A stretch of DNA of 64,000 nt, taken from assembly GCF_022012475.1 (NCBI RefSeq), contig NZ_JAKLWS010000004.1:124001-188000 (forward strand). Reading direction: 5' to 3'. Every line of letters begins with the position of its first letter. Position 1 is the first letter of the stretch. This document shows positions 3,096-33,588 of the stretch, piece after piece. This DNA comes from Rhodohalobacter sulfatireducens (GTDB lineage: Bacteria > Bacteroidota > Rhodothermia > Balneolales > Balneolaceae). The translations under genes were made by a program, and so were the position numbers. Under the pieces are notes generated by a model. That model was not told the origin of the DNA. It ran no database searches and was given only the letters and a program-made list of their open reading frames with translations.

Positions 3096-3188
3096 ATCCG
3101 AGAGTTCATCCACCTTCATCGTATTACTTATAAGCATATCATTGTACCTTAATTATTGGAGCAGGCCAGCGAGCAGAGATCATACCAA

Positions 3189-8023: not shown

Positions 8024-9310
8024 TTATTGATTTGCAGCCCACTCTTCAAACATTTCGATCGAGGTGTAAAGTACTCCCGCCGATCCTCTGAATGTTCCTG
8101 AACCCATCGGCTCATTACTTGGAGTGTACCATTCATAAAAACCATCGTTTTCTACAACTCTTTCGAACATGGGGACGGCTTCTTCATAAGCTTCTTGTAC
8201 AAATCCGTAACGGATGAGCTGCTGAATCATACGACCGCCAAACCATGTCCAGTCCCCGCCGTTTTGGTAGCCGTACGGATACATCCCTTCATTCATGAAA
8301 AAGCCTTCAGGGTAGGGCGGGTAGAGTGTTAATCCTATAGTGGCGGCATTTGCTGCCTCTACATTCTCCCTCATTCGCTGCAAAGCATCATAGACTTGAT
8401 CTTCAGTAAGCAGTCCTGCTTCAATTGCAACTGCCGTGCCTCCGTGCTGGTAAATTTCATCTTCATTAAAATCATCCGGGAATGGCGAATCATCCAGGTA
8501 GCGATGTGGTACAAATTGTTGATTTTCTTCTTCCCAAAGATGATTCATAACATTTACAGAAATGCTCTCGTGAATTTCCATCAATGCGTCTGCTTCTCCA
8601 GGCAACATTTCAGCAAGGTTCTGAAGTGCGATCAAAAACATGGCATTATCATAAACATCCACTGCATAGTGAGTATCTTCTGTAAGGAATACTCCCCACT
8701 CGTGTTCAGGCTGTACATCTCCCCAATCGGCAGTGGTTGCTCCCCAGATTAAGTCATACTCCTCACTGAATCGCTCATTCATCAGAAAGTCGACAGCGAA
8801 TAGCATTCGTTCTGCGACGGTCATCTCCCCCACAGTTTCATCTAAAATAGTGTAATCACCCGATCTGTTTACATATTTATAAACCGCTTGTATCAACGAG
8901 GATTCATGATCCGTTTCCACTGTATTTTTGTGTGCCATGCGGTCCGGTTCAAGATCTGAATAGATATAATCATATCCGCCCTCTTCGTCTTCAGCACGCG
9001 GGATAAAACCATCAACAATTCCGCCCTCATCGCTTTGAAACCGAAAGAATATCAGTAAATTTTCTTTAACAACTTCCTGATCATGCAGTTCCAATGCCAG
9101 TTCTATGAATGTATTATAATCCCTGATCCAAACTTCAGAGTAGCTGTCGCCCGCATTAAATCCGGTCGATACAATTTCAATCGCCTTTTCTTTGACAACC
9201 GGAATATTTGGGTCGTTACTAAGCGAATCAATGAGTTCGTGATTCGAATTACCTGCAGTACAAGAACTGAGGATAAAGAGAGATAGAAACAGAAGGTATT
9301 TGTGTATCAT
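8024..9310 (-). CDS. Lipoprotein (alpha/alpha)6-barrel glycosidase-like protein, family unassigned (copy 2)
   Basis: This 428-residue paralogue of the protein at 3189-4481 aligns over its whole length. The equivalent acidic residues are D64 in WIRDYNTF and the Glu of DGFYEWY; DWGD, AVDVYDNAM, HGGTAVAIEAG and QNGGDWTWFGG are all shared. Unlike copy 1 it carries a lipobox (FILSSC), so it is predicted to be a lipoprotein, possibly surface-exposed. It is the first gene of the last transcription unit of the locus, behind its own operator-like site (9608-9623) and a long structured leader that ends in a terminator 31 bases before the ATG. The glycosidase role follows from fold and context; the bond it cleaves is unknown. 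Confidence 0.75.
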   Translation of the reverse strand: MIHKYLLFLSLFILSSCTAGNSNHELIDSLSNDPNIPVVKEKAIEIVSTGFNAGDSYSEVWIRDYNTFIELALELHDQEVVKENLLIFFRFQSDEGGIVDGFIPRAEDEEGGYDYIYSDLEPDRMAHKNTVETDHESSLIQAVYKYVNRSGDYTILDETVGEMTVAERMLFAVDFLMNERFSEEYDLIWGATTADWGDVQPEHEWGVFLTEDTHYAVDVYDNAMFLIALQNLAEMLPGEADALMEIHESISVNVMNHLWEEENQQFVPHRYLDDSPFPDDFNEDEIYQHGGTAVAIEAGLLTEDQVYDALQRMRENVEAANAATIGLTLYPPYPEGFFMNEGMYPYGYQNGGDWTWFGGRMIQQLIRYGFVQEAYEEAVPMFERVVENDGFYEWYTPSNEPMGSGTFRGSAGVLYTSIEMFEEWAANQ

Positions 9311-9663: not shown

Positions 9664-12483
9664 CTAATCCACCCAATTTTTATTGGGTTCCGGCCCGAGC
9701 CAAATTTCAAGAATACCGCCTGCTGAAAATTCCTTATGGCTGAACCAAAATTGATCCAGAGAATTGCCATTCAATGTTGCTTTTTGGATATACATATTTT
9801 CGGTTGAGTTATTATACGTTTTAATAACGAACTCCTCCCCTTCGTAATAAGCCGGATCCAGTTTTATCGTGATTTGATCAAACACCGGGCTGGTAATCTC
9901 ATATACAGGATTTATAGAGGCAGTACCTCGAAGACTAAAAATCCCCATAGACATTAAAGCACTCATTCCTCCCATCTGCCCCTGGTCTTCATCATGTCCG
10001 CCGTACCCTTCCCCCGGAGTCACAGCTCCATATGCTTGTTCATTAACTTTGCGTACCCAATATTGCGTCAGCCAGGGCCTATCGATGTGATTGAAAACAT
10101 GAGCTCCGGAAAGTCCCGGTTGGTTGGCATAACTCACGTGACCGTCACTATATCCAAATACAAAATCATCCGGTTGAGCCTGTTCAAATGCAAAGTTTAA
10201 TTTTTCGCTTACCTGTTCATATCCCCCCATCATTTCCGACAGTCCGGCAATATCATGAGATACCGACCAGGTTCCTTGCCACGAGTTTCCTTCAACCCAA
10301 CCTGAACCGTCCAGGGGATCCTTGTGAAGCCAGTTCCCTTTTTCATCTTTTGGAAAGATCAAGCCTTCTTCATCATTAAACAGGTGTTTCCATCCGACTG
10401 AACGATTTAAAAAGTATTCAGAATCTTCATTCTTGCCTAACCCCTTTGCCATTTGAGCCAACGACCAGTCCTGGAAGTTCGCCTCAAGCGTTCGACCTGC
10501 ATTGTTAATGAAATATCCATTCTGAAGGTAGTGGTCAGTAACCTCAAGCATTCCACCCGGCATATGATTGGATTTCATAGCTTCAAACGCATGTTCATGA
10601 TCCACTTTCGTCAATATTCCTTTTGTGTATGCCGAGACTATTAGCGGAGTTGCCGGACAGCCGGTCATGATGTAGGAATAGCCACCCACGTTAGGTCCCC
10701 TGGGAAGCAATCCTCCATTATCGGCATATTGAACAAGCGAGGCTGAAAAATCATCCAACACTTCCGGCCACGCCAATCCCCATAGAATATTCAAATTCCA
10801 TTGGGTCAGCCAAAAAGCATCTGAATTGTACATGTGAAACCTGCTTTCACCCTGCTCATCTTTCGGGACTTTTCGAACTTTTAGTCTCGCATTCATCGTG
10901 TGCGAACCGACTCTGTCTCCCTGCGTATAATCAGGGTAATCACCACTGTAGTCATCAATCTTACTCCGCCCCATCAACACATGCCACAGATCCGTGTAGA
11001 ACTTTGTCTTTTGATCATAGGATCCTCCTTCTACATCAATTTTTCCCAGCCAGTGATTCCACTCTTGCCTTGATTCATTTATTACCTGTTCAAAGTCCCA
11101 GTGGCCTCCCTCTTTGGCGAGATTATTCCGGGCATTTTCGAGACTGGTATATGAAACCGCAAATTTAACGCTGATCTGATCTCCGGGGGTAACCTTATAC
11201 CTTGCACTTACACCAGCAGTTGGTGCATCGTGGTAACTTTGTCCCTCATTTTTTGGTGTACTTCCGGGTCTTCCTTCAAGATTATTTATATCATGAAAAT
11301 ATGTTTCACCGTCCCATCCGTCCAATCTTTCAAAAGGACGGTCGAACTCAGCTGCAAAATAGATCTTTACATGATCGGGACCTCCCCAGAAGCGGCCGGT
11401 CGTATTAAAATCCCCTTCGATCTTTGTGTTACTCACTTTGGTTACATTTGCGTCTGTCATGGTAGAGGTACCCACATATCCGCCCAGATTCAGAAGGATG
11501 TCAGCCACCGTTTCTGTTGTATATGTCAGACGGTAGTAGCTGACCCGATCCGTACTTGTTTGTTCAACCCACACGTAATAGTCCTCAAGATATTGCCGAT
11601 GATAACCGGGCTGAACGATTTCCGCGTCATGAGAGAATGATGATTTCCAGTATTCTTCCCCTTTCAAAGGATCAATATCTCCGGTTGTAGGCATCATGGT
11701 GAGTCCAGATAACATCCAGCCATGTATTTGAGGGTACCCTAACACCTCTGTTGTATTGTAATTATACCCACCGCCATCCTGGTTCTTATTTCGGGTCAAT
11801 GGAGCTGCACCAATCATTCCAAAAGGTCGTCTTCCGGTGATAAAGAAAAAATATCTTCCTCTTGTAGTTTCGATATACGGATCTACCCAAGATACATAGT
11901 CAGAACTCTCATCCGGAGCAGCATACACTTCAATTTCCGATAGTCCCAAATTCAACCCATCACCATCCGTCACTTCAAAGCGAACCCATTCGACCTCTTT
12001 TGGCGGAAATGTGATCTCCTTTGGGCTGCCGTCATTTGGAATCTGGAATACACTTATCTCCTCTCCGTCACTAAAAAATAACGTACCTCCGGCCGTGTGG
12101 GTTTTTTCATCTGCCCGGTCAAAGAGAATAATTTTATTTATTTTTTGAGGAGCATCCCAATCCAGTTGAATCCATGGATAATTGATAGCTCCCCAGGAAG
12201 TGATACCGCTCTCCGAAGTCCACTCCCCGTAATTGGCAATTCGAATAATCCCATCCGTAACGTTCGAATCACTTTTTTCTTCACCCCAATTATAAGAACT
12301 CGTTACCGTTGCCACCGGGGCAATATTAGATGAACTCGATATCTTCCCTGACGTCAAGCCGGACTCAGTTTGGGCTTTTATACCTTCAGCCATCATTCCT
12401 GTCAATAGAATAGCCATCAAGAAATAAATAGTCCTCAACCTCATAAAACGGCAGATTTTTTTAAGAAAGTTTTGGCTCATCAT
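9664..12483 (-). CDS. GH92 alpha-mannosidase with N-terminal F5/8-type (discoidin) domain
   Basis: The 939-residue protein starts with a signal peptide (ends near GIKAQTESG). About residues 50-190 form an F5/8 type C carbohydrate-binding domain, with APVATVTSSYNWGEEKSDSN near the start and VEWVRFEVTDGDGLNLGLSE near the end. The GH92 fold follows from YVSWVDPYIETTRGRY. The presumed catalytic acid is E731 in VEGNSWQ and the base region D831-D833 in HDEDQGQ. The motif usually reading LEY is LEANFQDW here. It is the second of two adjacent GH92 genes, 12 bases behind the stop of the one at 12496, so the pair is co-transcribed. The binding domain suggests that it acts on polymeric or cell-attached mannan. 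Confidence 0.93.
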   Translation of the reverse strand: MMSQNFLKKICRFMRLRTIYFLMAILLTGMMAEGIKAQTESGLTSGKISSSSNIAPVATVTSSYNWGEEKSDSNVTDGIIRIANYGEWTSESGITSWGAINYPWIQLDWDAPQKINKIILFDRADEKTHTAGGTLFFSDGEEISVFQIPNDGSPKEITFPPKEVEWVRFEVTDGDGLNLGLSEIEVYAAPDESSDYVSWVDPYIETTRGRYFFFITGRRPFGMIGAAPLTRNKNQDGGGYNYNTTEVLGYPQIHGWMLSGLTMMPTTGDIDPLKGEEYWKSSFSHDAEIVQPGYHRQYLEDYYVWVEQTSTDRVSYYRLTYTTETVADILLNLGGYVGTSTMTDANVTKVSNTKIEGDFNTTGRFWGGPDHVKIYFAAEFDRPFERLDGWDGETYFHDINNLEGRPGSTPKNEGQSYHDAPTAGVSARYKVTPGDQISVKFAVSYTSLENARNNLAKEGGHWDFEQVINESRQEWNHWLGKIDVEGGSYDQKTKFYTDLWHVLMGRSKIDDYSGDYPDYTQGDRVGSHTMNARLKVRKVPKDEQGESRFHMYNSDAFWLTQWNLNILWGLAWPEVLDDFSASLVQYADNGGLLPRGPNVGGYSYIMTGCPATPLIVSAYTKGILTKVDHEHAFEAMKSNHMPGGMLEVTDHYLQNGYFINNAGRTLEANFQDWSLAQMAKGLGKNEDSEYFLNRSVGWKHLFNDEEGLIFPKDEKGNWLHKDPLDGSGWVEGNSWQGTWSVSHDIAGLSEMMGGYEQVSEKLNFAFEQAQPDDFVFGYSDGHVSYANQPGLSGAHVFNHIDRPWLTQYWVRKVNEQAYGAVTPGEGYGGHDEDQGQMGGMSALMSMGIFSLRGTASINPVYEITSPVFDQITIKLDPAYYEGEEFVIKTYNNSTENMYIQKATLNGNSLDQFWFSHKEFSAGGILEIWLGPEPNKNWVD

Positions 12484-12495
12484 TAACCATATATT

Positions 12496-14901
12496 TTAAT
12501 TCTCAGGCTCCGACAATGATGGTGGAGCGTCATCTTGTTCGCTTCCCCAATCTTTGTTGGGTTCGGCTCCCATCTCTAAAATGAGTGTCCCTCCATCTGC
12601 CAGTTCTGAATGATAGAACCATGGCTTATTTAGAGGTTCTCCATCGATAGTCGCCGACTGGATATACCTGTTTTGATCTGAATTATTCCTTGTTTCAATG
12701 ACAAATGTATCACCTGTATAATAATCTGAATCAAGTTGAAACGTGATCTTATCAAAAATCGGGCTTCCAATTTCATAAACGGGATTTGACGCCGCTCCTC
12801 CATTTACGGAAAACAGACCTGTTTTAAAAAGCACAGCAAGGGCACCCATCTGTCCCTGGTCCTCATCACCATTGTACCCGGTTTCTGGTGATAAACCCTG
12901 GTACACTTTTTCAGTCACTTCACGTGTCCATTTTTGTGTTAGCCAGGGACTTCCGGAATAGTTAAAAAGCCAGGCCATCTGCTGGGTTTGTTGATTCCCG
13001 TAATTAACATACACTCGCCTCAGCTCTCGTAATGTCTCCTGGGCATGAGCACTTCCGGATGTAAAGTTATGTTCCCGGGCTCGTTCAAAAGCGTTATTTA
13101 ATTTGGAAGTGAAATTTTCCCTTCCATCCATCAAGTTGATCAGGCCCTGAACATCATGTGGCACCCACCATGTGGATTGCGCCGCATTCGTTTCAACCCA
13201 GCCCTCACCGTACTCTAAAATGTCGAAGGGTTCCTTCCATTCTCCGTTCTGGTTGCGCACCCACATCCAGGTAGAATCGGCATGCCAAAGATTTTCATAG
13301 TTTTTGGCTCTTTTGGAAAAGCGATCCTGATCTTCAGAATATCCGAGGCCGGCAGCCATTTCGGAGAGCGCCCAATCCTGGTAGGCATATTCCAATGTCT
13401 GTCCCGCTCCGTCTTCGTGAAAGCCACAAGGCTCCTCATTTAGCGGGAAAGGTATATACCCTCTTTCGATATATTCATCCAGGCCACCGCCGCAAAACGT
13501 ATCATGTTCATAACCGGCCTTTGCCATAATGCCACCGGGCATATGGTTCTTTTTCATACCCTCATACGCTTTTTCAACATCAAAATTTCGAATCCCTTTT
13601 GAATAGGCACTTGCGATAAAGGGTGAAAATGAAGCACCTGTCATGACAAAGGTATAATTGCCGCCCGAAGGTCCCCGCGGTATCAAACCACCGTCATCAT
13701 ACATGAGCAGCATTGAGTTTACAAATTCCTCTGATATTTTAGGGTAAGCCAGGTGCCACAGGATGTTCAAGTTCCAATGCGACCCCCAAAAAGAATCGGA
13801 ATTATAGTGATTAAATAACGGCTCTCCCGAGCTATTCAGGGGGATCTGACCGATCCGTGGTTCATCGCCTGTCATATCTATATATTTCCCATTCACATCA
13901 CTGACGGTGCGTCTTCCCTGCAGAGCTTTCCAAAGATCTGTATAAAACCTGCTTTGCTCTTCTTCTGTACCTCCTTCCACCTCAATTCTTGTGAGTGCTT
14001 CATTCCACTCGTTCTTGGAGTCTTGTACAACTTGATCGAAATCCCAATGAGCAAGTTCGGTATCAAGATTGAGCCTGGCCTGTTCAGTACTTACATAGGA
14101 GATGGCTACCTTCATCAATCGTTCTGTATTATCCCGGGTACTGAATTGTACATATCCCCCTGTATTTTCTCCTTCGATGATCTCATCTGCCTCAAGGAGT
14201 TCACCATCTTCCCAACCGCCAAACGTATCGAAGGGCTGATCAAAATCAGCAACAAAATAGACTGTGAATGGTTTCGGCCTTCTTATTGTGGGTTCCATCA
14301 CGGCGTACCCTTTCAGCTCAGTATCACTTACCTTTTCTATATATCCACTTTGTGTGCCGGAAGGTCCCAACATTGTAGTAAAATCAAAATGAATATAACT
14401 GCTGTCTGTCGGTGGAAACTGGTACCTGTGAAAACCAACCCGCTTAGTAGAAGTTAGTTCTGCGGTGATATCATAGGCATCCAGTGTGATTTTATGATAC
14501 CCGGCTTCTACTACCTCCGAATCGTGGCTATAAGGTGAGCCGTATACCTCAGGTCCCATGTGACCTCTGAACTCGCCATTGGTGGGCAATACAGGAATTC
14601 CTGAAATCTGCCAGCCGTGAATATGGCTAAACACTTTAACTGAGTCTTTATCGAATTGATATCCTGATTCCCAGGCCCCATTTAAGTCCATATCCGGGCT
14701 CAAATTCACCATTCCAAAGGGCCTCGTGGCAGAGCTAAAAAATAACCACCTTGAATTTGAGGCATCTATCAGCGGATAGACCTTGTCCACAACTCTCGAC
14801 TGATTATTTTCTACAATATAGGTTCGAGGTTGACAGGCACTGAAGAATCCAATTACAGCAATAACTACTAATACAGTCCAATTAATCTTTAAAGATTTCA
14901 T
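12496..14901 (-). CDS. GH92 alpha-mannosidase lipoprotein
   Basis: I choose the ATG at 14901 because it gives a compact lipoprotein signal with lipobox FFSAC; frames opening at 14904 or 14934 only add basic residues. The GH92 domain begins at VVDKVYPLIDASNSRW. The presumed catalytic acid is E581 (numbered from 14934), but the motif around it reads VETNAAQ instead of VEGN(A/S)WQ. The base region D690-D692 in GDEDQGQ and the LEYAYQDW motif are intact. An insertion with two Cys (around HDTFCGGGLDEY and NEEPCGFHEDG) sits before LEYAYQDW and is absent from the paralogues. The lipid anchor suggests a surface or periplasmic membrane location. It is the first of a tight GH92 pair, preceded by a 99-base AT-rich spacer that may hold a promoter. 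Confidence 0.92.
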   Translation of the reverse strand: MKSLKINWTVLVVIAVIGFFSACQPRTYIVENNQSRVVDKVYPLIDASNSRWLFFSSATRPFGMVNLSPDMDLNGAWESGYQFDKDSVKVFSHIHGWQISGIPVLPTNGEFRGHMGPEVYGSPYSHDSEVVEAGYHKITLDAYDITAELTSTKRVGFHRYQFPPTDSSYIHFDFTTMLGPSGTQSGYIEKVSDTELKGYAVMEPTIRRPKPFTVYFVADFDQPFDTFGGWEDGELLEADEIIEGENTGGYVQFSTRDNTERLMKVAISYVSTEQARLNLDTELAHWDFDQVVQDSKNEWNEALTRIEVEGGTEEEQSRFYTDLWKALQGRRTVSDVNGKYIDMTGDEPRIGQIPLNSSGEPLFNHYNSDSFWGSHWNLNILWHLAYPKISEEFVNSMLLMYDDGGLIPRGPSGGNYTFVMTGASFSPFIASAYSKGIRNFDVEKAYEGMKKNHMPGGIMAKAGYEHDTFCGGGLDEYIERGYIPFPLNEEPCGFHEDGAGQTLEYAYQDWALSEMAAGLGYSEDQDRFSKRAKNYENLWHADSTWMWVRNQNGEWKEPFDILEYGEGWVETNAAQSTWWVPHDVQGLINLMDGRENFTSKLNNAFERAREHNFTSGSAHAQETLRELRRVYVNYGNQQTQQMAWLFNYSGSPWLTQKWTREVTEKVYQGLSPETGYNGDEDQGQMGALAVLFKTGLFSVNGGAASNPVYEIGSPIFDKITFQLDSDYYTGDTFVIETRNNSDQNRYIQSATIDGEPLNKPWFYHSELADGGTLILEMGAEPNKDWGSEQDDAPPSLSEPEN

Positions 14902-15033
14902 CATTTTTCTAGGTACACATTTTTTGGGTGACACAATAATACAACCATTTATTACTACATGAGACCGTTTTTGTTATTAAGCTTTTGAAAACATTTTTAC
15001 AAAGCTGTTATGACATTTTCTAATAGTTTTTTA

Positions 15034-15801
15034 TCAATCCTGCTTTTTACTCCCTGCAACCATAACACCCAACCCGCCATCAACACGAATAGCTTGTCCT
15101 GTAATAAACTCTGCTTTCTCACTTGAGGCAAAAAAGATTAGCTCTGCAATTTCAGATGGGTCTGCTACACGATTGGCTAAATGCATATCTTCACACTCCT
15201 TATAAACTTCTTCAGGATTTGGTGACTCCTGTATGGCTTTTTGAAGCATGGGTGTATCCACGGTTCCCGGACAGATCGCTATCGAACGTATTTCGGGACT
15301 GTAATCAACAGCAATGCTTCGTGTAAGACCTAAAAGAGCTGTTTTTGATGTTGTATAGGCAGCCACCTTCTGCTGACTCAAAAATGCCTGGACACTGGAA
15401 ACATTGATAACAACGCCTTTTCCGTTTCGAAGCATCGAAGGAATGCATTCCCTCGCACAGATGAAATGACTTTTCAAATTTACATTCATCACCCTGTCCC
15501 AAAGCTCATCTGATGTTTCTGTAACGGCACCATAAGGGTTGATTCCGGCGTTGTTGACAAGCACACTAATTTCACCGAACCGGTCGATCGCTTTTTCAAC
15601 TGCTCTCACTACTTGATCTGTATCAGAGACATCACATTTGATAAATTGAGATAAATCTCCCAAACTCTCCGCCAATTTATTCCCTTCTTCATCATCCACA
15701 TCAAGAATAGTGACATGATGAGAGTTTTCTGCGAATAAACGTACACAGCAAGCCCCGATTCCTTTGGCACCTCCGGTTACAATAATGTGCTTTTGCTTCA
15801 T
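15034..15801 (-). CDS. SDR-family sugar or polyol dehydrogenase candidate
   Basis: A complete classical short-chain dehydrogenase of 255 residues. It has the cofactor motif VTGGAKGIG, an acidic residue after beta-2 (ILDVDDEE) that favours NAD, LVNNAGIN, the catalytic Ser in INVSS and Y-x-x-x-K in AAYTTSK, and the usual C-terminal GQAIRVDGG. Only 9 bases separate it from the DUF4432 gene upstream, and the lactonase and mannonate dehydratase genes follow the same rhythm. In that setting oxidation of mannose to mannonolactone is an attractive role, but the sequence itself does not give the substrate. L-fucose or other aldose dehydrogenase activity is an alternative. Confidence 0.88.
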   Translation of the reverse strand: MKQKHIIVTGGAKGIGACCVRLFAENSHHVTILDVDDEEGNKLAESLGDLSQFIKCDVSDTDQVVRAVEKAIDRFGEISVLVNNAGINPYGAVTETSDELWDRVMNVNLKSHFICARECIPSMLRNGKGVVINVSSVQAFLSQQKVAAYTTSKTALLGLTRSIAVDYSPEIRSIAICPGTVDTPMLQKAIQESPNPEEVYKECEDMHLANRVADPSEIAELIFFASSEKAEFITGQAIRVDGGLGVMVAGSKKQD

Positions 15802-15810
15802 AATTATTCC

Positions 15811-16842
15811 TTAACTGTTATCCACCGGAAAAGCCTTTATCGATGTTTTTTTAGTTTCGCGGGGATCGAGACGCAACCACTCACCTCTCTGAATAGCTCC
15901 TTCAGGGTCGGATGGACTCTTAGATGTCCAGGGTTCTAATGCTATTGCATACGTATTGCCCCACCAGGGAGAGTCTTTGGTGCCATATCGTTCCTGCCAA
16001 AACCAAACATATTCATAAAGTGAGGCATCCCATTCTAAACCGAAACCGATCTTTTTTTCCTTGTTCATAATGGTGTACCTGCCTGTATCTCCAAACCCGG
16101 ATAAGTAGGCAAGATCCGAATAGGGCTGTTCATTTTCCGCCGGAATAAAACTTGCGTCATCTTCCTCTCCCAAAATGGTTAAAGCCTTTGGCCATTCAGT
16201 TTCAATTCCCGGTTTAAATCGCCTGTGATCCGGCATATTGGGTTCTGTTTCCATCTTTTTTGCATTGATTTCAACGGTTGCTCCGTCTTTTAAGAATGGC
16301 ATACCAAAAGCAATATGCTGGCCCCACATCATATCAAAATGAGTATTCGATTCATTTGAAACAGAAGAGGATATATGTAATTTCGGGCTATTGTTTGTGA
16401 GCGTTATTGTTTTTTCGACCATTAATGGAGTACGCAGTGGACGAACCCAACATTTCAGAGATACTTCTTCCTGGCTGTTATTAATGATGCTATAGTCCCA
16501 GGGAATCGCCCATGCTTCACCATGCTGACCAAATATAGAACCCCGGTAATTGAAAGAGGGGCTGTTTGGCAGTGTTTCCTGCCATCCGCCATAGTAATAG
16601 TCCTCCATTTGATTGGCTGTATCCCGTATCTGGGGAAAAGTTTTTTGAGGATTCTCGATCTCTCCGGGCAACCGTAAAAGTAAATTCAGGTCTGCAGGTT
16701 TATACCGAAATTCAAAAATATCAGCTCCACGCCCCACAAGTATACCCACTCTTATCAGGTCATTTTCTAACCAGACAACTTGCATACCATTGTATTGCCA
16801 TTTGTCTGTGATAAAACACCGATTCTTTGGAAAAGATATCAT
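15811..16842 (-). CDS. DUF4432 / aldose 1-epimerase-like protein
   Basis: A galactose-mutarotase-like beta-sandwich protein without a signal peptide, so cytoplasmic. An open frame extends to 16893, but that start overlaps the upstream gene by 40 bases; the ATG at 16842 lies 11 bases past that gene's stop and is preferred. Recognisable blocks are VGRGADIFEFRYKP, YYGGWQETLPN, GQHGEAWAIPWDY, MMWGQHIAFG and the C-terminal EYVWFWQERYG, typical of DUF4432-type aldose epimerase relatives. In this gene order it could equilibrate sugar anomers ahead of the dehydrogenase. Activity of DUF4432 proteins is poorly established, so the role is inferred. Confidence 0.8.
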   Translation of the reverse strand: MISFPKNRCFITDKWQYNGMQVVWLENDLIRVGILVGRGADIFEFRYKPADLNLLLRLPGEIENPQKTFPQIRDTANQMEDYYYGGWQETLPNSPSFNYRGSIFGQHGEAWAIPWDYSIINNSQEEVSLKCWVRPLRTPLMVEKTITLTNNSPKLHISSSVSNESNTHFDMMWGQHIAFGMPFLKDGATVEINAKKMETEPNMPDHRRFKPGIETEWPKALTILGEEDDASFIPAENEQPYSDLAYLSGFGDTGRYTIMNKEKKIGFGLEWDASLYEYVWFWQERYGTKDSPWWGNTYAIALEPWTSKSPSDPEGAIQRGEWLRLDPRETKKTSIKAFPVDNS

Positions 16843-16853
16843 AGCAAACCAGC

Positions 16854-17945
16854 TTAGGGAGTTAAAAATTGAATACTTACCGGAGTTCCACATTCAAAGG
16901 ATGATGCGTATTCACCTACAGGCAGACCAGACTCATCGTCCAACCGAAATGGCACAATGGAGTCTGTGTCCTGGTTAGCTACCAGTAACCAGGTGCCTGT
17001 AGGATCAACAGCAAAATCGCGGGGAGTTTTTCCCCTGATTGAAAACCAACTTTCATACTTCAACTTTCCAGATTCACCAATAGAATGAACGATAATACTA
17101 TTATGCCCCCGGTCGGATACATAAAGGGCTTTATGATTCGGGTGAATGCGAATTGCTGAACCGGCAGCCTGCCCTTCATACTCTTCAGGAAGAGCTGCGA
17201 TATCCTCAATTAAACTCATATTCCCGGTTTCCTGGTCCCAATCATAAACCAATATATGTGAGTTCAGCTCGCAGTAGACGTATGATTTGTTTAGCGGTTC
17301 ATTCCAGACTAAGTGCCGAGGACCATATCCCGGAGGCACATCAATACTCCTTATGATATTCTCAAGGTCGGCCATATCATGAATCCAGATTTTATCGCTT
17401 CCCAAATCGCAGACATACAACCATTTATTATCGGGAGAAACCACTGCCTGGTGAGCATGAGAATCTTCTTGTCTTTCTACATTTGGTCCACTCCCCTCAT
17501 ATGTAATAATCTCTGTAGCTGGAGAAATTTCGGACCCGTCAAAATTATACGCTGTAAGCTTACTATCCATGTAGGAACTGAGGAATATTCGTTCTCCGTT
17601 GCGGTCAGACGCAATATGGCAGGTAGATTTTCCGTGTGAAGGTTGGGTTGATAATTGGGATAGTGAGCCATTGCTGCCAATTGAAAAAACACTCACAGAT
17701 CCAATCTCAGAGAACCTGTCGATCGCAGCAAACAGGTACTTTTCGTTCGGACTTTTATCCAGATACGTAGCATTGACTCCCTCTTCACAGAGGCTGTTTT
17801 TTTGAATGTTTCCTGTTTTTAAATCAAGAGTACAAGAAAGAATGCCATCCCCATTTGCAGTGAGAACATAGGGACCTTCATCTGAATATGAACCGACGAA
17901 AAAATTTACAGTTTTACCTTTTTCTTCATCCATCTCATCGCTCAT
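16854..17945 (-). CDS. Lactonase-family seven-bladed beta-propeller (6-phosphogluconolactonase-like)
   Basis: The 363-residue protein belongs to the Pgl-type lactonase family (PF10282). Repeated propeller strands carry motifs such as SPNEKYLFAA, SPDNKWLYVCDLGSDKIW, GPRHLVWN, HPNHKALYVSDRGHNSI and DPTGTWLLVANQDTDSI. There is no signal peptide, so it acts in the cytoplasm. Directly upstream is mannonate dehydratase and downstream an epimerase-like protein and an SDR, which together suggest hydrolysis of mannonolactone to mannonate. A phosphogluconolactonase role in the pentose pathway is the default family annotation but fits the surroundings less well. Confidence 0.85.
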   Translation of the reverse strand: MSDEMDEEKGKTVNFFVGSYSDEGPYVLTANGDGILSCTLDLKTGNIQKNSLCEEGVNATYLDKSPNEKYLFAAIDRFSEIGSVSVFSIGSNGSLSQLSTQPSHGKSTCHIASDRNGERIFLSSYMDSKLTAYNFDGSEISPATEIITYEGSGPNVERQEDSHAHQAVVSPDNKWLYVCDLGSDKIWIHDMADLENIIRSIDVPPGYGPRHLVWNEPLNKSYVYCELNSHILVYDWDQETGNMSLIEDIAALPEEYEGQAAGSAIRIHPNHKALYVSDRGHNSIIVHSIGESGKLKYESWFSIRGKTPRDFAVDPTGTWLLVANQDTDSIVPFRLDDESGLPVGEYASSFECGTPVSIQFLTP

Positions 17946-17976
17946 TTCTATTGAAATTTCGTTTTTAATTAGATTT

Positions 17977-19053
17977 TCAGAAGTACTGAAGCAGAGCTTT
18001 TATATAACCCATACTGAACGCCATCCCGGCATGCCATGGTGCTTCGCAAGACATTTGAGGAGCATGGTCCGGAATAATCATACCCCGGTAATCGTGTTTT
18101 CTGAGAATTTGTACGATTCGAGCCATATCAATATCACCCTCATCCACAAAAGTCTCTTTGTAATACGGCACCCTATTTCTGACATTTCTAAAATGGATAT
18201 AGCCAATCTCATCTCTTTTAGCAAAATGCTCAACCGTCTCATAGATATCTCCTGAGGCCATCTCGGCTATAGTCCCCAAACAAAGTTCCATAACGTGATT
18301 TGGGCTTTCACTGGTTTTAATGATCTCTTTAAAATGATCCGGTTGATACCCAAGCCGTGGCTGTTTTCTGATCTCTTTAAGGGGCGGGTCGTCGGGATGC
18401 ATGGCTAATTGAACACCGGATTCTTCTGCAACAGGTAAAATTTCATTTAAAAAATCCCGATGTCGCCTGATCAATTCCTGTCGGCTGATCGGTTCGATGA
18501 TATCTCCAGGTTGAATCTGTGAAGAGTCATAAATCATATTCCAAACCATTCCACGTGGAATAGGAGTGTCGATAACTTCAGACTTACCTTCCATCCCTAC
18601 AGCAACCGCACCACCACGTGCAAATCTCCCCCTTATTCTGCCGGCAACTCCAGCCAAAGAGAAATAATATCCCAGGATTGGAATTCCGGCCTTTCCCATA
18701 TTTCGGACGAGTTGTTTGACATTCTCAACCTGTTCATCACGTTTGGGACCATCCAGCAAGATGTCATGCCAGAATACGGGGTTGATATTCTCCAGGGCTT
18801 CCAGTTTAAGGCCGTGCTTGGCTAGCCGTTTCTTCAGTGAAATCAGCGTCTCGTACGGCCAAACTTCCTCTTTTTTTGCAATGCCCCATCCCATTTCCTG
18901 GTCTCCTACGGGCTGATCTGTCCTGTTCTCATCCTCACCTTTGTTAAAATAATCGGTGAGATGCGCAACAATGTGGGTAGCACCTGCTTGCCGTGCAAAG
19001 GCAAAGTGTTCATCATCGAGCATCTGTTTATATAAGCCAAACCCTAATTTCAC
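17977..19053 (-). CDS. uxuA: Mannonate dehydratase
   Basis: UxuA converts D-mannonate to 2-keto-3-deoxy-D-gluconate with a divalent metal, in the cytoplasm. The 358-residue TIM-barrel protein shows the family blocks ATHIVAHLTDYF, LKLEALENINPVFW, GIPILGYYFSLAGV, the metal-site stretch LAMHPDDPPL, CLGTIAEM, IGYIHFRNVR and PDHAPQM. The size is slightly below the 390 or so of the E. coli enzyme but normal for the shorter subgroup. It is normally a hexuronate-pathway enzyme. Here no uronate isomerase or mannonate oxidoreductase is near; instead a lactonase and an SDR follow, which points to mannonate made by oxidation of mannose. It is 17 bases downstream of the GH38 gene. Confidence 0.93.
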   Translation of the reverse strand: MKLGFGLYKQMLDDEHFAFARQAGATHIVAHLTDYFNKGEDENRTDQPVGDQEMGWGIAKKEEVWPYETLISLKKRLAKHGLKLEALENINPVFWHDILLDGPKRDEQVENVKQLVRNMGKAGIPILGYYFSLAGVAGRIRGRFARGGAVAVGMEGKSEVIDTPIPRGMVWNMIYDSSQIQPGDIIEPISRQELIRRHRDFLNEILPVAEESGVQLAMHPDDPPLKEIRKQPRLGYQPDHFKEIIKTSESPNHVMELCLGTIAEMASGDIYETVEHFAKRDEIGYIHFRNVRNRVPYYKETFVDEGDIDMARIVQILRKHDYRGMIIPDHAPQMSCEAPWHAGMAFSMGYIKALLQYF

Positions 19054-19070
19054 AATGTAAACCTATCCTG

Positions 19071-22000
19071 TTATTGGTCAAACAACCTGCTTTTTGTTAC
19101 GAGCCTGATCGTAGTGTATCGATTCGCCTGATATGGGATACTTACCACATTATTTTCAACGCGCAATTCTCTCTGGTTCTCTTCCACTCCATTTGCCAGG
19201 TAGGCCGCATCAATATCCAGCAGGTCTGTTGACAATTCGGTTTCACCTTCTTTACCTGCTGTTTCAAGAAGTCTGAGTATCCATCCATCTCCATCCTCAG
19301 CCTGTTTAAGAGTAACAAATTGTAAGTTTTCTGATTCTGTTAAAGAAAAGAATTTCCCTTTTTCAGCGGACAACGGACGATCTTGTGCCTCTACACCGGC
19401 CGCCCAGGTAGAAAGAAGCGGATACCCAATTATCGGGCTCCGAATATCGGCATCAAATTGAGCCAACTCTTCCCGACTCATATTTTCACCACTTGTAATG
19501 GAGTAACTGAAGATAAATTCTCCCTCCTGGCTCGCCTTGTAATTGGTAAACCAGTAGTTGTTCATCACGTAAGAGAAAACATGGCCATTCTCAATATCTA
19601 AATGAGTAGGCCACTCCCCACGATTAATATCGGTCAAAGTAAACAAAGGAGCATCCGGAGAAGCCCATGCTATTGAATAATTACCGTCGTTTACCCTAAC
19701 AAGATTTTGGGTCGTAAACCATTCTCGTGCCGCCCCCGGAAGTTGGTCCTCATTTGGACGCAACCAGCCATTTTGAATTTGATAGGCAACCTCAGGATCT
19801 TCGGACATAAAAGGAAAAGCAAAATAAACCCCCTCTTTATCCAATGTTGATGCTTTATGAACCGTGTTAATAATATCAACCCGTTTGATGTCATTATATA
19901 ACCTGTATTCGCTGCGAATCATCGGTGTGATTTGCGACCGGGCTTCAACTATGATCCTCTGTCCAACAGATGTCTCACTATTTTCTATAATTCTGACATC
20001 TGTAGGTTTATGGATCTGCAGGTCAGCCGGCGGTATCCCCATGCCGTGGTTGATAATTTTTGTATCCTCACCACCACTTACATACAGATATTCGTTCAGA
20101 GAGTATGAGGCGTTTTCATCGACAATCTCTTTACCGGATTCTTTATCATATACACGAATCAGTCCACCTGTAGTGGTATCTACTGTCAGCCTGTAATACT
20201 GATTCTCAGCAGTGCTACCTGAAAATTCATCTTTTTCAGCTGGTGGAGTATCTGCTGATCGTATCTCATAACCTTTATAGCCCATCGCAGGAATATCTCT
20301 GGCTATAAAGCGAATTTTCCTATAACCATCCTGCTCGTAAATTACGTCGTATTCCACCGGTATCTCTTTCTCCAGGTCAAAGAGATATTCCCCGGCGTTC
20401 AGTTCTAACTCAACTGGATTGGATCGCATCCAGGGCTGCCAGTTGTACGCAAAAACGGTACTCCCTTCAACCTTAAATAACTGACTAACCCGGTTCAGTG
20501 AACGTGTCAAAACTGTACGTGTGCTCAAGTCAGCTTTGTTTGCGTAATTCTCTTTGATCTCCCACTGTCTCGTCACAAATTCTCTTTCAGGCTGACTGAT
20601 TGCATTAAAGGCTCCCCAGGTATGTTCATTATAAAAGAGTATGTTTTTCCAAATGTCATTGAATAGTTCAGACTTATAAGAATATCTCGGCATCAACATT
20701 GATGAAAAGCTTGCTGCAGTTTCAGCCATTGGCAGCATCTCTTGGGCCTTCTGAACTTTTTTGGTTGCCTTGGAGGTCGAGGCAGCTCCATCTTCCCAGT
20801 AGGCACCCGCTCCCCCTCTGTACGTTTTGAGTTCGTTACTAAAATTTTCATCTATATAATCATAGAAATCTGCATCTGAGGCGGTCACCAGTTTGGGATA
20901 TTCAAATTCTGAATTCCACTCTTCAATGATGGTAGCATCGGCATCTTCCGGAATCAATGCATTATCCACGTAGGCTCCGTAGATCATAATTGCGTCTGGT
21001 GCGTAATCTTCTCTGCGATAACGCTCCAGTGCCTGGGGAACATTTACCTTCATAATGTCGAGATTCGGAGGACCCTGCCAGCCTCCAACCCTTGTCAGCC
21101 TGGCCAGGTGCAGATAGCTCCTGGCATACCATTTCATAATTTTTTCTCCGTTCATCCCCTCCCAATAGAATGGAGATTCTTCATTGAGATTACTGAATCG
21201 AAGAATTGGAGCCCTGGTTTGATTACTTCCGACTACAAATCCTTTTACTCCAACATCCGTAAGCAAAGTCGGAAGAAACCAGCTGTGTGAAGGGGCGTCC
21301 GTTAACGAGGCCCAATTGAAATCAATTCCATGGTCCCGGTGCAATTTATACGTGTAGTAAGTAGCCCTATAGAGCTCTTCTCCGGATGAAAGACCCGTCA
21401 GAAGATTTAAATACAAAGCATTGACCGGCGCTCTGCCTTCAACAGAATACTCCAGAAATTTGTTTTTGTAATAATCGGTTCTGCTTTCCAGGTAATTATC
21501 AACCAGCCAGCTCGTCTCGAAATTGAACACATAAGATGGATACTGATCCAGCACCTCAAGCACACGATCTGTATTACGATTATCCAGCTCATTCACGTGT
21601 GGCTGCAGGTCGGTAAAACCTACATCATTATGAACCCGGGGCGTTACAAAAAGCGTCCATTTTTTTTCGGGTACATATTGCTGTTCAATACTCACTGAGT
21701 TCTGATCCAGACTCACGTTAAGGGTGATCTTTTCGGCAGCCTCTAAGTCTGGCACCATGACCTTTTTCCGCAGTAATCCGAAATCATACCCATCGCTATC
21801 AAATGAAGTAGTAACTCGTTCATTTTCAAACTCTATCTCTGCTTCGCCATTCTCAAAAGAAGATTCAAAAGGTATCTCAAGATGAGCTACCCCCTTTAGT
21901 TCTCCATCTTCGTATTGATAGTATACACTTGGTTTCAAATGGGGAGGTATCGACGTCACGTCTTGATTTTCATTATTCTCAAAACTAATTGCATCATAAG

Positions 22001-22541
22001 ACATCCCCCCCACACCGATAGGAACAATAGTAATTTGATTATTTTCTTCATGAACCCACTCCCCATTAATCGGTACAACTAAACGCTGTTTTGTTAGAAG
22101 TAGCGAATTTGCTTCTCCGTCATTTGCATCCTGTTTAACGTCGTATTCAACCGAAAATATTCCATTTTTTCCGTTTACGGATATCTCAATCAGTTCCGGT
22201 GATCCGGTGCTGTAGATTAGATCCAGGGTTAACCTGTAGTTTTCTCCCTGGTGGTCTGGCAAATCAAAAACTATGTTATAAGGGCTTTCTTTTTCACCTT
22301 TAATAGGCGACTTCGAACCCAAATGCCGGCCGGGAAAATCGGGTGATTGATGCTCAGAAACATCAAAAGTAAGCTCCTCCTGATGACCGGCCTTGAACTC
22401 TATTGATAAGCCATCGTTTTCACCAATTTTCCATATATACTCACTTTGATCAACTATGGACTTCGCATTTGAAAAATTTACAAATGCAGGATATACGAAA
22501 ATTGAAATTATGCTAAATGAAAGTAGAATTAATTTCTTCAT
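19071..22541 (-). CDS. GH38-like alpha-mannosidase, secreted, with N-terminal beta-sandwich module
   Basis: Retaining, metal-dependent alpha-mannosidase related to GH38. The ATG at 22541 gives a clean signal peptide (MKKLILLSFS...); the upstream ATG at 22553 adds four residues. About residues 35-210 form the module beginning YIWKIGENDGLSIEF, also present on the GH92 protein at 4653. The catalytic region begins at TPRVHNDVGFTD, where H308 and D310 (numbered from 22553) match the HND metal ligands of GH38. D419 in LTDAPSHSW matches the nucleophile of the usual IDPFGHS. The C-terminal half is the long beta-rich GH38 tail. Overall divergence from typical GH38 suggests a distinct subgroup. It follows the SusCD pair and would cut mannosides outside the cytoplasm. 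Confidence 0.85.
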   Translation of the reverse strand: MKKLILLSFSIISIFVYPAFVNFSNAKSIVDQSEYIWKIGENDGLSIEFKAGHQEELTFDVSEHQSPDFPGRHLGSKSPIKGEKESPYNIVFDLPDHQGENYRLTLDLIYSTGSPELIEISVNGKNGIFSVEYDVKQDANDGEANSLLLTKQRLVVPINGEWVHEENNQITIVPIGVGGMSYDAISFENNENQDVTSIPPHLKPSVYYQYEDGELKGVAHLEIPFESSFENGEAEIEFENERVTTSFDSDGYDFGLLRKKVMVPDLEAAEKITLNVSLDQNSVSIEQQYVPEKKWTLFVTPRVHNDVGFTDLQPHVNELDNRNTDRVLEVLDQYPSYVFNFETSWLVDNYLESRTDYYKNKFLEYSVEGRAPVNALYLNLLTGLSSGEELYRATYYTYKLHRDHGIDFNWASLTDAPSHSWFLPTLLTDVGVKGFVVGSNQTRAPILRFSNLNEESPFYWEGMNGEKIMKWYARSYLHLARLTRVGGWQGPPNLDIMKVNVPQALERYRREDYAPDAIMIYGAYVDNALIPEDADATIIEEWNSEFEYPKLVTASDADFYDYIDENFSNELKTYRGGAGAYWEDGAASTSKATKKVQKAQEMLPMAETAASFSSMLMPRYSYKSELFNDIWKNILFYNEHTWGAFNAISQPEREFVTRQWEIKENYANKADLSTRTVLTRSLNRVSQLFKVEGSTVFAYNWQPWMRSNPVELELNAGEYLFDLEKEIPVEYDVIYEQDGYRKIRFIARDIPAMGYKGYEIRSADTPPAEKDEFSGSTAENQYYRLTVDTTTGGLIRVYDKESGKEIVDENASYSLNEYLYVSGGEDTKIINHGMGIPPADLQIHKPTDVRIIENSETSVGQRIIVEARSQITPMIRSEYRLYNDIKRVDIINTVHKASTLDKEGVYFAFPFMSEDPEVAYQIQNGWLRPNEDQLPGAAREWFTTQNLVRVNDGNYSIAWASPDAPLFTLTDINRGEWPTHLDIENGHVFSYVMNNYWFTNYKASQEGEFIFSYSITSGENMSREELAQFDADIRSPIIGYPLLSTWAAGVEAQDRPLSAEKGKFFSLTESENLQFVTLKQAEDGDGWILRLLETAGKEGETELSTDLLDIDAAYLANGVEENQRELRVENNVVSIPYQANRYTTIRLVTKSRLFDQ

Positions 22542-22563
22542 ATTATTTACCAATTTTCATGAA

Positions 22564-23308: not shown

Positions 23309-24880
23309 CTAATATCCCGGGTTTTGTGTCAACTCAGGATTTCTCTGTATCTCGTCACTTGAAATTGGATATAACAAGTGTTTTTCCTGGAAAGGTACAC
23401 CCCTTTGATTGGTTGCACCAATAACGTCAACAAACTCAACTTCCCCGGGATTACTTTCTGAGGATGTTGGATATTTTCTTGTACGTCGAACATCGTCCCA
23501 TACTTTAAAATCAAGGGCTAATTCACGTAATCTCTCTTTCCAAACTTCCTCAACAAATTCTTGTTCGGAAAGCCCGGAAAGTTGGTTGACAATAACACTT
23601 CTGTCAGTTTGCCAATAGGCTCTGTCCCTGACATCTGCAAGATATCCAACCGCTTCAGAGGTAACACCTTCGGTACGGGCAATCGCCTCAGCTGCAATTA
23701 ATAGTACAAGTGGATACCGAAGAGCATGAAGATTATTACTACCCACACCCGTTTCAAAGACAGCAGCGTCTTCGTGCCATAGATATGGTGCATGTTCACC
23801 GAACTCAACTTGTTCACCACCTTCAGTTTCGTAATAATGATGGAACATTTGTTGATTTTGAATTCTGAGATCCATTTCAGGATCAAAGAAATTTATATAC
23901 TCATCCGTTAACAGATAAGCGTTATATCCATCGGTATATTTTACACCCGGAGCTCTGCTGGACCGTGGGTAAACTAAACTTGGATAAGGGTTTGAGCTGA
24001 TATTCGCATTAAATTCAATGTCATATATGTATTCTCTTTCAACCTGGGAGTTACGAATAACATTGTATGCACTCTGTTCGGGAGTTGGCCCATTCTGAAT
24101 GAGTTCATACTCACCTGAATTGATAACAGACCTTGCTGCTGCAGCTGCATTTGCGTACATACTTTCTTCACCCTGTACGGGAAATCCGGCCATCTGCAAA
24201 TAGACTTCTGCCAAAATGGTTTCAACGAGTCCACGAGTAACCCTGTAGTTATTCATGGGAAATGGTACGGTTGATAATCCACCATTGTCTCTTGCCCATT
24301 CTAAATCTGCTATTATCTGCTGATATACAGTTTCAGCGTTATCTCTCGGGACAAATATGCCGCTGAGCCCTTCCACAGGCTCCATCACCAACGGTACATC
24401 ACCAAAATTCTTAACCAAATTGAAGTAATTGTAGGCTCTAAAGAATCTTGCCTCAGCTAAAAGCCGGTTTGTTTCAGCTTCAGAGAGTCCTTCAATACCG
24501 GGAATATTTGTGATAGCTAAATTTGCCCTGGCAATAGAGTTGTAATGACCTGACCAAACTGAGTTTAGCCATTGCGATAAATTAACCGGTGTTAATGACA
24601 GATCTTTAACAACCTGAACGCCCACCCTGCTTTCCGGGTGCTCGACTAATCCCGATAAATAACCGCTGCGCATGGCATCTACGCCATCCCAGTAACTTGT
24701 GGAGAAGTTATACCAAGAACCTGCTCCGCTTCGATATAGCGCATTCACAGAACTCCTGGCATGTGCCGGTGTCTCATAAAACTGATTTACAGAAATTTGA
24801 GTTTCGGGCGTTTCCGTTAAGAAATCATCACAAGAAACCAGTACTAAAAATCCAATAAATATTATTAAATAATTTTTCAT
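23309..24880 (-). CDS. susD: SusD/RagB-family nutrient-binding outer-membrane lipoprotein
   Basis: Surface lipoprotein that captures oligosaccharide and passes it to the SusC channel. It has a lipobox (LVLVSC at residues 12-17) followed by DDFLTETPETQIS, the usual SusD opening. N-terminal TPR-like helices include SVNALYRSG, LAEARFFRAYNYFNLVKNFGDVPLV (residues about 140-165, the most conserved SusD block) and LAEVYLQMAG. The C-terminus has ALRYPLVLLIAAEAIAR and WKERLRELALDFKVWDDVRRT. Length 523 residues is typical. It is 22 bases behind susC. Ligand is inferred to be alpha-mannan or high-mannose glycan from the enzyme genes that follow. Confidence 0.96.
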   Translation of the reverse strand: MKNYLIIFIGFLVLVSCDDFLTETPETQISVNQFYETPAHARSSVNALYRSGAGSWYNFSTSYWDGVDAMRSGYLSGLVEHPESRVGVQVVKDLSLTPVNLSQWLNSVWSGHYNSIARANLAITNIPGIEGLSEAETNRLLAEARFFRAYNYFNLVKNFGDVPLVMEPVEGLSGIFVPRDNAETVYQQIIADLEWARDNGGLSTVPFPMNNYRVTRGLVETILAEVYLQMAGFPVQGEESMYANAAAAARSVINSGEYELIQNGPTPEQSAYNVIRNSQVEREYIYDIEFNANISSNPYPSLVYPRSSRAPGVKYTDGYNAYLLTDEYINFFDPEMDLRIQNQQMFHHYYETEGGEQVEFGEHAPYLWHEDAAVFETGVGSNNLHALRYPLVLLIAAEAIARTEGVTSEAVGYLADVRDRAYWQTDRSVIVNQLSGLSEQEFVEEVWKERLRELALDFKVWDDVRRTRKYPTSSESNPGEVEFVDVIGATNQRGVPFQEKHLLYPISSDEIQRNPELTQNPGY

Positions 24881-33152: not shown

Positions 33153-33588
33153 AGTAGACTTTTCTAACCTTTTTTTTGATAATGACATATTTGCTTTTGG
33201 CACTATTTTCAATATCAGACGCTTTTTTAAGCCAACGCAATATTAATTTTAAGTTAGTTAAAGATATGCTAAAGTTGATAATTTTTTAAGGATTAACAAA
33301 TGAGGCATTGTTAACCGCCAATACTACAAATAAATCTTTAAAAAAACCGAATCCCGAATTTATTTTAACGCGTTTACCGGTTAGAGCTCTATTCCCGCCA
33401 CTTGAAGGGGCTTAACTGGTAAACGCGTTACTTTAATTAAATGAATATTTAGTTGTTGCCAAGAACCCCGAAATAAAAATCAAAATAATTCAGTATCGTA
33501 AATCAACCCCCGGGATTTCACTCCCGGAGGTCGCGTTGGGAAATACAAATCTATGGACTGATTGATTTCCCAGGGCACCAAGGATCCT
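33153..33588. other. Intergenic region with a long inverted repeat
   Basis: This gap between the regulator and the DUF5777 gene holds the inverted repeat at 33366-33430 and a small CCGGGA/TCCCGG stem at 33510-33527. The stem lies just past the DUF5777 stop on the minus strand but lacks a T-run. The part nearest the regulator is AT-rich and probably contains its promoter. No gene is supported. Confidence 0.6.
33366..33430. repeat. 18-bp inverted repeat around a 29-base loop
   Basis: TAACGCGTTTACCGGTTA (33366-33383) and TAACTGGTAAACGCGTTA (33413-33430) are inverted copies with one mismatch, and each arm contains the self-complementary AACGCGTT. No T-run follows, so an ordinary intrinsic terminator is unlikely. 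It could be a mobile-element end, a recombination site or a large mRNA hairpin. Confidence 0.65.

Follow-up and report, generated by a model that had tools for sequence, protein, structure and literature searches.

Why does an alpha-mannan utilisation locus of Rhodohalobacter sulfatireducens carry a UxuA-like dehydratase in one run with a dehydrogenase and a lactonase? The stretch analysed here (the window: 64,000 nt, positions 124,001 to 188,000 of contig NZ_JAKLWS010000004.1) contains four minus-strand genes, all read in the same direction, that encode a UxuA-like dehydratase (UxuAL), a propeller lactonase, a DUF4432 protein and a short-chain dehydrogenase/reductase (SDR). They are flanked by a gene for a glycoside hydrolase family 38 (GH38)-like enzyme and two genes for GH92 enzymes. 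In the usual models of bacterial mannan catabolism, mannose enters glycolysis via a kinase and an isomerase. The four genes probably encode the first steps of a D-mannose pathway that is oxidative and non-phosphorylative. The genes, their families, the fold of the DUF4432 protein and a conserved gene association were observed; support for the pathway is comparative, its substrates, products and flux all being predictions from sequence, and we infer D-mannose as the substrate from gene company only.

Along the direction of transcription the order is UxuAL (nt 17977–19053), seven-bladed propeller lactonase (16854–17945), DUF4432 protein (15811–16842, the open reading frame (ORF) as called extending to 16893) and SDR (SDR1; 15034–15801). 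The GH38-like alpha-mannosidase gene that precedes UxuAL in the run (19071–22553, minus strand; PF01074, 54.9 bits against a cut-off of 25) ends 17 bp from it. A further 31 bp separate UxuAL from the lactonase, and 9 bp separate the DUF4432 gene from the SDR. The lactonase and DUF4432 ORFs as called overlap by 40 bp, which becomes an 11 bp gap if the DUF4432 protein starts at its second methionine (residue 18), a start more likely than that of the ORF because the alignment with relatives points there. After the SDR come two GH92 alpha-mannosidase genes, with gaps of 99 and 12 bp (12496–14934, PF07971, 473.7 bits; 9664–12483, with a DUF7402/F5_F8 domain, 400.3 bits; both minus strand). No signal peptide was seen by eye in any of the four proteins. 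An earlier, sequence-only reading of this DNA had described the set as four tightly spaced genes for an SDR, a DUF4432 protein, a lactonase and a mannonate dehydratase. Position, spacing and all four Pfam families bear this out, but the dehydratase lies below the NCBIfam cut-offs for mannonate dehydratase.

The SDR (Pfam adh_short_C2, 199.1 against 27 bits) is predicted to be an NAD-dependent D-mannose (aldose) 1-dehydrogenase. Its best match among 224 NCBIfam models was the aldose dehydrogenase PRK06398 (268 bits, under the equivalog cut-off of 341). When a profile built from five sequences was searched against the PDB, entries 3vtz, 2dtd/2dtx and 2zk7 ranked 1–3 of 332 distinct sequences (E <= 1e-30), at 250, 235 and 234 bits, followed by 214 bits for the next. 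These three we take to be Thermoplasma aldohexose dehydrogenases, 2dtd/2dtx being AldT, and by sequence comparison the closest solved relatives of the window SDR are of this type. The DUF4432 protein (Pfam DUF4432, 65.6 against 32.5 bits) scored 20.2 bits with the aldose 1-epimerase family PF01263, under the gathering score of 27. Its AlphaFold model (pLDDT 75.4, pTM 0.78, 74 residues under 50) has a galactose mutarotase fold (Foldseek E 2.1e-15; VIA Z 27.6, rmsd 3.6, 306 residues aligned to 3ty1_A), and the protein is predicted from this model to be an aldose mutarotase. The propeller protein, a predicted mannono-lactonase, belongs to PF10282 (Lactonase; 298.1 against 21.7 bits) and falls below the cut-off of the 6-phosphogluconolactonase equivalog (119.6 against 370 bits).

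UxuAL is a member of the Pfam family UxuA (PF03786, 171.7 against 23.7 bits) that scores under both NCBIfam mannonate dehydratase cut-offs (PRK03906, 136.5 against 191; TIGR00695, 93.8 against 199.55) and lies outside the canonical UxuA rows on the tree; scores and tree position together rule out that it is a canonical UxuA. The His/Cys/His/Asp-His set of UxuA (the HPDDPP His, a Cys, the HxR His and PDH), which we take to be its metal and catalytic residues, was present in 87–90 of 90 UxuAL rows and in 21/21 canonical rows. It is intact in the window protein, which is predicted to convert mannonate to 2-keto-3-deoxygluconate (KDG). The three rows that break the set are divergent second UxuAL copies. 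Such copies are found, in the company of genes for a porter and for a hydrolase of MGH1-like type, at L056:1036-2073, L057:3452-4492 and L058:2306-3343; they are very divergent and deviate at the otherwise conserved positions D221, R289 and D329.

The full set (UxuAL, DUF4432, lactonase and an SDR1-type SDR) was found in seven loci: the window, L052, L053, L054, L055 (Gramella sp. AN32), L159 and L160, the six besides the window coming from distant relatives. The SDR1-type SDRs of the other sets are 52–63% identical to that of the window. Of the 393 other genomes in the phylum sample, four encode a close homologue that matches UxuAL over its full length (47–57% identity), and three of these have the full set. 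A search for DUF4432 proteins of the window's type among 397 genomes of one family gave matches in four, G155 included; in G619 (L161) DUF4432 stands alone, and the other three carry the set. Wider comparisons used 84 UxuAL loci (L051–L134), made up of L051–L054 from the phylum sample and the best 80 of 467 UxuAL relatives from one collection scan; many of these loci are short, and they are related among themselves.

In a quick tree of UxuAL, the window and L055 group with L056–L058 (support of 100 by the Shimodaira–Hasegawa-like approximate likelihood-ratio test, SH-aLRT), and the other five full-set loci form a separate clade (98); long-branch warnings apply to L054 and to the second UxuAL copies of L056–L058. 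The window and L055 have a propeller lactonase (PF10282), and the remaining five sets have one of the SMP-30 type (PF08450). The same partners thus occur with dehydratases of two lineages and lactonases of two families. The tree requires three changes of the label 'full set', two of them forced by well-supported branches, and these changes may reflect two pairings, or gain and loss.

A GH92 gene is present in cis in 6/7 full-set loci, as the sequence-only reading had anticipated, with G391 the exception. Their distance from UxuAL is about 4 to 24 kb in G640, G155, G452, G809 (L055) and G205; in the window it is about 3 to 15 kb. The locus holds four of the five GH92 genes of the window genome, the single one of G155, and 3/8, 1/4, 1/6 and 1/5 of those of G640, G452, G205 and G809, the counts for G205 and G809 including one partial match each. 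G640 retains much of the window locus (three GH92 proteins at 51–58% identity, the ManA part at 50%). A ManA-type protein with a ROK kinase was found in 6/7 full-set loci (the ROK gene of G205 being identified by eye), a sugar porter in 6/7 and a GntR regulator in 7/7; the GntR homologues of the six other loci, found by BLAST, are 46–53% identical to that of the window or to one another.

Across the larger collection, a mannosidase lies near 32/84 UxuAL loci as against 0/21 canonical UxuA loci, while the glucuronate isomerase gene uxaC is near 1/84 and 14/21, respectively. A mannosidase was counted as a GH38, GH92, GH76-like, MGH1-like or barrel protein (31/84 if the last two are left aside) within a reach of about 10 kb, by which L052–L055 score as none despite GH92 or GH38-like genes further out. 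The neighbours include GH38 in 28 loci, GH76-like in 12 and GH92 in nine. The control consisted of L047 and 20 loci (L135–L154) from 24 canonical-looking matches outside the window genome, incomplete contigs included; G014, G007, G051 and G009:C210 were left out. Since the models for the lactonase, GH76-like protein, porter and RraA were derived from the same 84 loci, the absence of these families from the controls is partly built in; the GH92 and GH38 models are broader. With a mannosidase in reach of 30/36 Bacteroidota loci compared with 1/39 of Verrucomicrobiota, the mannosidase company of UxuAL is a trait of the Bacteroidota. The verrucomicrobial loci with none in reach (38/39) include L063, L091 and L104. 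A second type of UxuAL operon was also seen (the L070–L128 type, e.g., L089, L100 and L120), with GH38, RraA, a porter, a 142-aa protein, an SDR, a solute-binding-like protein, enoyl-CoA hydratase, lactonase, CoA-transferase III and UxuAL; its 142-aa protein, present in 29 copies in 22 loci, has no Pfam match.

Three kinds of possible exit for a 2-keto-3-deoxy acid were found near UxuAL: an RraA-type protein (30/84), a fumarylacetoacetate hydrolase (FAH)-family hydrolase with a second SDR, SDR2 (5/84), and a PfkB kinase with 2-keto-3-deoxy-6-phosphogluconate (KDPG) aldolase (3/84). The FAH hydrolase and SDR2 adjoin three of the seven full sets (L052, L054 and L159). G391, where a search for the KDPG aldolase family gave no match, has the two beside UxuAL. 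In L056–L058 (two Arenibacter and one Aestuariivivens), which carry the nearest UxuAL relatives after Gramella, the gene order is UxuAL, lactonase, SDR2, FAH, an APH-type kinase and enolase. If SDR2 and FAH turn KDG into pyruvate and glycerate, an enolase and a kinase for glycerate would be expected downstream, and we infer that these runs point to a hexonate with a 6-OH and not to a 6-deoxy sugar. The APH-family kinase between the hydrolase and enolase (L056:14067-15062) is a candidate glycerate kinase of an unexpected family.

The genome of R. sulfatireducens (5.1 Mb, computed completeness 100%) carries related clusters elsewhere. Contig C62 encodes a canonical UxuA (557.9 against 199.55 bits), UxaC (611.1 against 387), an SDR near the D-mannonate oxidoreductases (268.8 bits, under the cut-off of 281), a PfkB protein that resembles KDG kinases (266.5 bits with the best single-enzyme model, under its cut-off of 440) and a KDPG aldolase (192 against 156.05). 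The sequence-only reading had noted a UxuA unaccompanied by uronate isomerase or mannonate oxidoreductase; this describes the locus correctly but not the genome, and the KDG kinase or aldolase that it suggested looking for in the genome has candidates in the PfkB protein and the aldolase of C62. A cluster on contig C64 (L171) looks like an oxidative L-fucose cluster, with FucP (441.4 against 280.4), an L-fuconolactonase-like protein (276.5, cut-off 400), an enolase-superfamily dehydratase under the cut-offs, SDR2 and FAH. By sequence, the genome thus encodes ways out for a keto-deoxy acid on C62 (PfkB and KDPG aldolase) and on C64 (FAH and SDR2), which rules out that it is without an exit for KDG. 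Contig C49 (L172) carries a probable oxidative pentose cluster that repeats the dehydrogenase-lactonase-dehydratase combination of the window, with an SDR, a lactonase like SMP-30 and a dehydratase of the IlvD type (PRK06131, 901.6 against 539); no mannosidase is among its labelled ORFs. By analogy with these clusters, the best interpretation of the window set is as the route for mannose within a group of oxidative routes in this genome.

In the pathway proposed here, GH92 and GH38 enzymes would free mannose from alpha-mannan and the sugar porter would import it. The DUF4432 protein would interconvert the anomers, the SDR would oxidise mannose to mannono-lactone with NAD, the propeller lactonase would open the ring to give mannonate, and UxuAL would dehydrate this to KDG. 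KDG would most likely pass to the KDG-kinase-like protein and KDPG aldolase of the C62 glucuronate cluster, or alternatively to the SDR2 and 2,4-diketo-acid hydrolase pair of the C64 L-fucose cluster. A fused ROK/ManA protein would provide a parallel kinase-isomerase branch. The succession from mannose through mannonolactone and mannonate to KDG was already put forward in the sequence-only reading, and the seven loci, the mannosidase company, the AldT-like SDR and the available KDG exit lend it comparative support.

Several observations weigh against this pathway. At five positions UxuAL differs from UxuA without exception (R146, E264, D304, W340 and N89, the last a serine in UxuA, each in 90/90 rows), and at a sixth in 87/90 rows (S132, methionine in UxuA), which suggests a pocket altered relative to that of UxuA; the acid may therefore be one other than D-mannonate. 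Membership of the SDR family does not imply specificity for mannose and leaves the substrate unfixed, since an SDR with 58% identity to that of the window occurs in the probable pentose cluster of the same genome (C49). The association also has gaps: G181 (L051), one of the four close homologues, is without DUF4432 and its SDR is only 31% identical, DUF4432 with an SDR1-type SDR is found in only 4/84 UxuAL loci, and G391 has no GH92 gene, just a GH38-like protein of 24% identity some 19 kb away. No mannosidase is in reach of 52/84 UxuAL loci, 38 of them verrucomicrobial. According to the accessible text of PMC6901390 the lactone opens spontaneously, and a lactonase would for that reason not be strictly needed. 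The pathway also does not explain why ROK/ManA is retained alongside the oxidative set; one might guess at a source of mannose 6-phosphate in its own right or at a choice in redox.

Some of these points would be explained if the same chemistry served another aldose that accompanies mannose in the glycan, such as a 6-deoxy hexose, an L-galactose-type sugar, a pentose or a substituted mannose. The altered pocket, the SDR paralogue of the pentose locus and the many verrucomicrobial loci lacking a mannosidase nearby all agree with this, as does the hydrolase: a representative FAH protein near UxuAL best matches the model for 2,4-didehydro-3-deoxy-L-rhamnonate hydrolase (319.5 bits, cut-off 500), and that of L054 is 66% identical to the hydrolase in the L-fucose cluster of the window genome. 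Because the FAH family also serves that oxidative L-fucose cluster, FAH alone does not name the sugar. The full sets are nevertheless accompanied by mannosidase and ROK/ManA, the genome has clusters of their own for L-fucose and, probably, for a pentose, and the kinase and enolase that follow FAH in three relatives fit glycerate, i.e., a sugar with a 6-OH, so that another aldose is a rather unlikely substrate.

Uronate catabolism, with the SDR as a fructuronate reductase and UxuAL making KDG from glucuronate-derived mannonate, could draw on the Pfam membership of UxuAL and on the fact that some D-mannonate oxidoreductases are SDRs (NCBIfam PRK08277). The best model for the window SDR is an aldose dehydrogenase, with PRK08277 not among the best 25 of 224, and the genome has a distinct glucuronate cluster. 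When the genomes with a full set were searched for a canonical UxuA over cut-off and for UxaC, both were present in 4/6 and neither in 2/6 (G391 and G452, each 99% complete). The sequence-only reading had held that its pathway would fail if the four genes occurred mainly with uronate loci; full sets lie near mannosidases, ROK/ManA, porter and GntR genes instead, and UxaC, as noted, is near a single one of the 84 loci. The separate C62 cluster, the neighbours of UxuAL and the two genomes lacking both UxaC and canonical UxuA led to rejection of the uronate reading, which is now highly improbable. An overflow or by-product branch, in which the flux goes through ROK/ManA and mannonate ends up in storage or is excreted, has about as slim a chance. 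ROK/ManA is near the set in 6/7 loci, and the glucose dehydrogenase of Pseudomonas putida makes extracellular mannonate from mannose in electrochemical culture, as far as the accessible part of PMC8313287 describes it, but the FAH hydrolase and SDR2 that adjoin three of the seven sets would handle the keto-deoxy acid.

A comparable route has been proposed for Thermoplasma acidophilum, where AldT oxidises mannose and, together with ManD and a KDG aldolase, would form an oxidative mannose metabolism that the accessible text describes as enzymatically feasible and hypothetical in vivo (PMC6901390). Shared with the window are an SDR dehydrogenase beside a mannonate dehydratase and the phosphate-free order of mannose, mannonolactone, mannonate and KDG (PMC6901390, same text). 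The window SDR is closest to the AldT type among solved structures, and ManD is likened to UxuAL by described function. The Thermoplasma system, as presented there, differs in being archaeal, in consisting of two adjacent genes and in its spontaneous lactone opening (PMC6901390), whereas the window set is bacterial, lies in a mannan locus and includes a mutarotase-like protein as well as a lactonase, and its KDG is probably phosphorylated. The glucose dehydrogenase Gcd of P. putida also converts mannose to mannonate in a bacterium, but through a periplasmic oxidation cascade, with mannonate accumulating outside the cells, and no lactonase-dehydratase cluster is described in the accessible part of that paper (PMC8313287). 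No bacterial catabolic route that leads from mannose via mannonate was found in the open-licence literature searched, in which the pathway of PMC6901390 was the sole oxidative mannose catabolic route to turn up; the accessible texts of PMC13063451, PMC9213526, PMC5507952, PMC4891872 and PMC3973600 do not describe one.

The clusters of the same genome offer further comparisons. With the canonical glucuronate route of C62 (UxaC-UxuB-UxuA-KdgK-KdgA) the window shares a UxuA-family dehydratase and KDG as the predicted product, but UxuAL belongs to a separate clade with other neighbours, and the window locus is without UxaC. The apparent oxidative L-fucose pathway of C64 has the same order of chemistry (mutarotase-like protein, dehydrogenase, lactonase and dehydratase, then SDR2 and FAH), and differs in its L-fuconolactonase-like lactonase and enolase-superfamily dehydratase. 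The probable pentose cluster of C49 shares the 58% identical SDR along with a lactonase and a dehydratase; the latter two are of the SMP-30-like and IlvD/EDD types, unlike those of the window, and a mannosidase is missing from its labelled ORFs.

Upstream of the four genes, beyond the GH38-like gene, the locus continues on the minus strand with genes for a SusD-like lipoprotein (23309–24880) and a SusC-like outer membrane transporter (24903–28055), both recognised by eye from their translations with no family search and both with homologues near the module elsewhere. These are followed by an MFS (major facilitator superfamily) sugar porter, the predicted mannose importer (28320–29699; TIGR00879, 403.3 against 237.8 bits), the ROK kinase fused to a ManA-like isomerase (29703–32360), and a GntR-family regulator (32427–33212), assigned by eye and for which BLAST placed homologues close to the module in each of the other six loci. 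The fusion, which would supply the phosphorylative branch, is a single protein of 885 aa with a ROK domain (PF00480, 55.4 against 22.9 bits) and with QxHP and PAGTxH motifs, presumably those of the phosphomannose isomerase (PMI) metal site. Its ManA-like half misses Pfam, and the separate Gramella homologue scores 21.9 against 22 for type I PMI, so in the mannokinase-isomerase named in the sequence-only reading the kinase half has a ROK domain over the cut-off and the isomerase half has its motifs but not a Pfam match. ROK and the ManA-like isomerase are one protein in the window and two genes in Gramella (L055) and G205 (L175).

Downstream, two further GH92 alpha-mannosidases are encoded on the minus strand at 4653–7880 and 714–3137 (PF07971 at G000:C83:128692-130131 and G000:C83:124753-126240, respectively). 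Between GH92 genes lie two paralogous alpha/alpha-barrel proteins of 428/430 aa (8024–9310 and 3189–4481), judged by eye to be probably exported and with folds of the GH94/GH100/GH63 type; a 59% identical homologue is present in L160. A GH125 label for these proteins (9310–8024 and 4481–3189) was dropped, as they have no GH125 Pfam match, score 18.4 and 35.5 bits with the GH94 superfamily (cut-off 27) and have alpha/alpha-barrel folds. They are possibly a mannosidase family that is as yet unassigned.

What the locus means for the wider family can be put more tentatively. With odds somewhat short of even, UxuAL may represent an unrecognised family of dehydratases for aldose oxidation and not for uronates, which in the Bacteroidota would be central to an oxidative route for mannose, combined with lactonases of different families and leading into three exits, and in the Verrucomicrobiota could act on mannose or another aldose; the odds are weaker because 38/39 verrucomicrobial loci have no mannosidase in reach. 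On this view the exits would be cleavage by an RraA-type protein, 4-oxidation and FAH hydrolysis followed by glycerate kinase and enolase, and KDG kinase followed by KDPG aldolase, and in the window locus the route would operate next to its phosphorylative competitor. For R. sulfatireducens itself, the mannan locus probably holds a bacterial form of an oxidative mannose route proposed so far for archaea. If so, predictions of yield and redox balance for the turnover of fungal and algal mannan would be altered, a large set of UxuA-like proteins outside uronate loci would be accounted for, and the route so far proposed in Thermoplasma would extend to a second domain of life.

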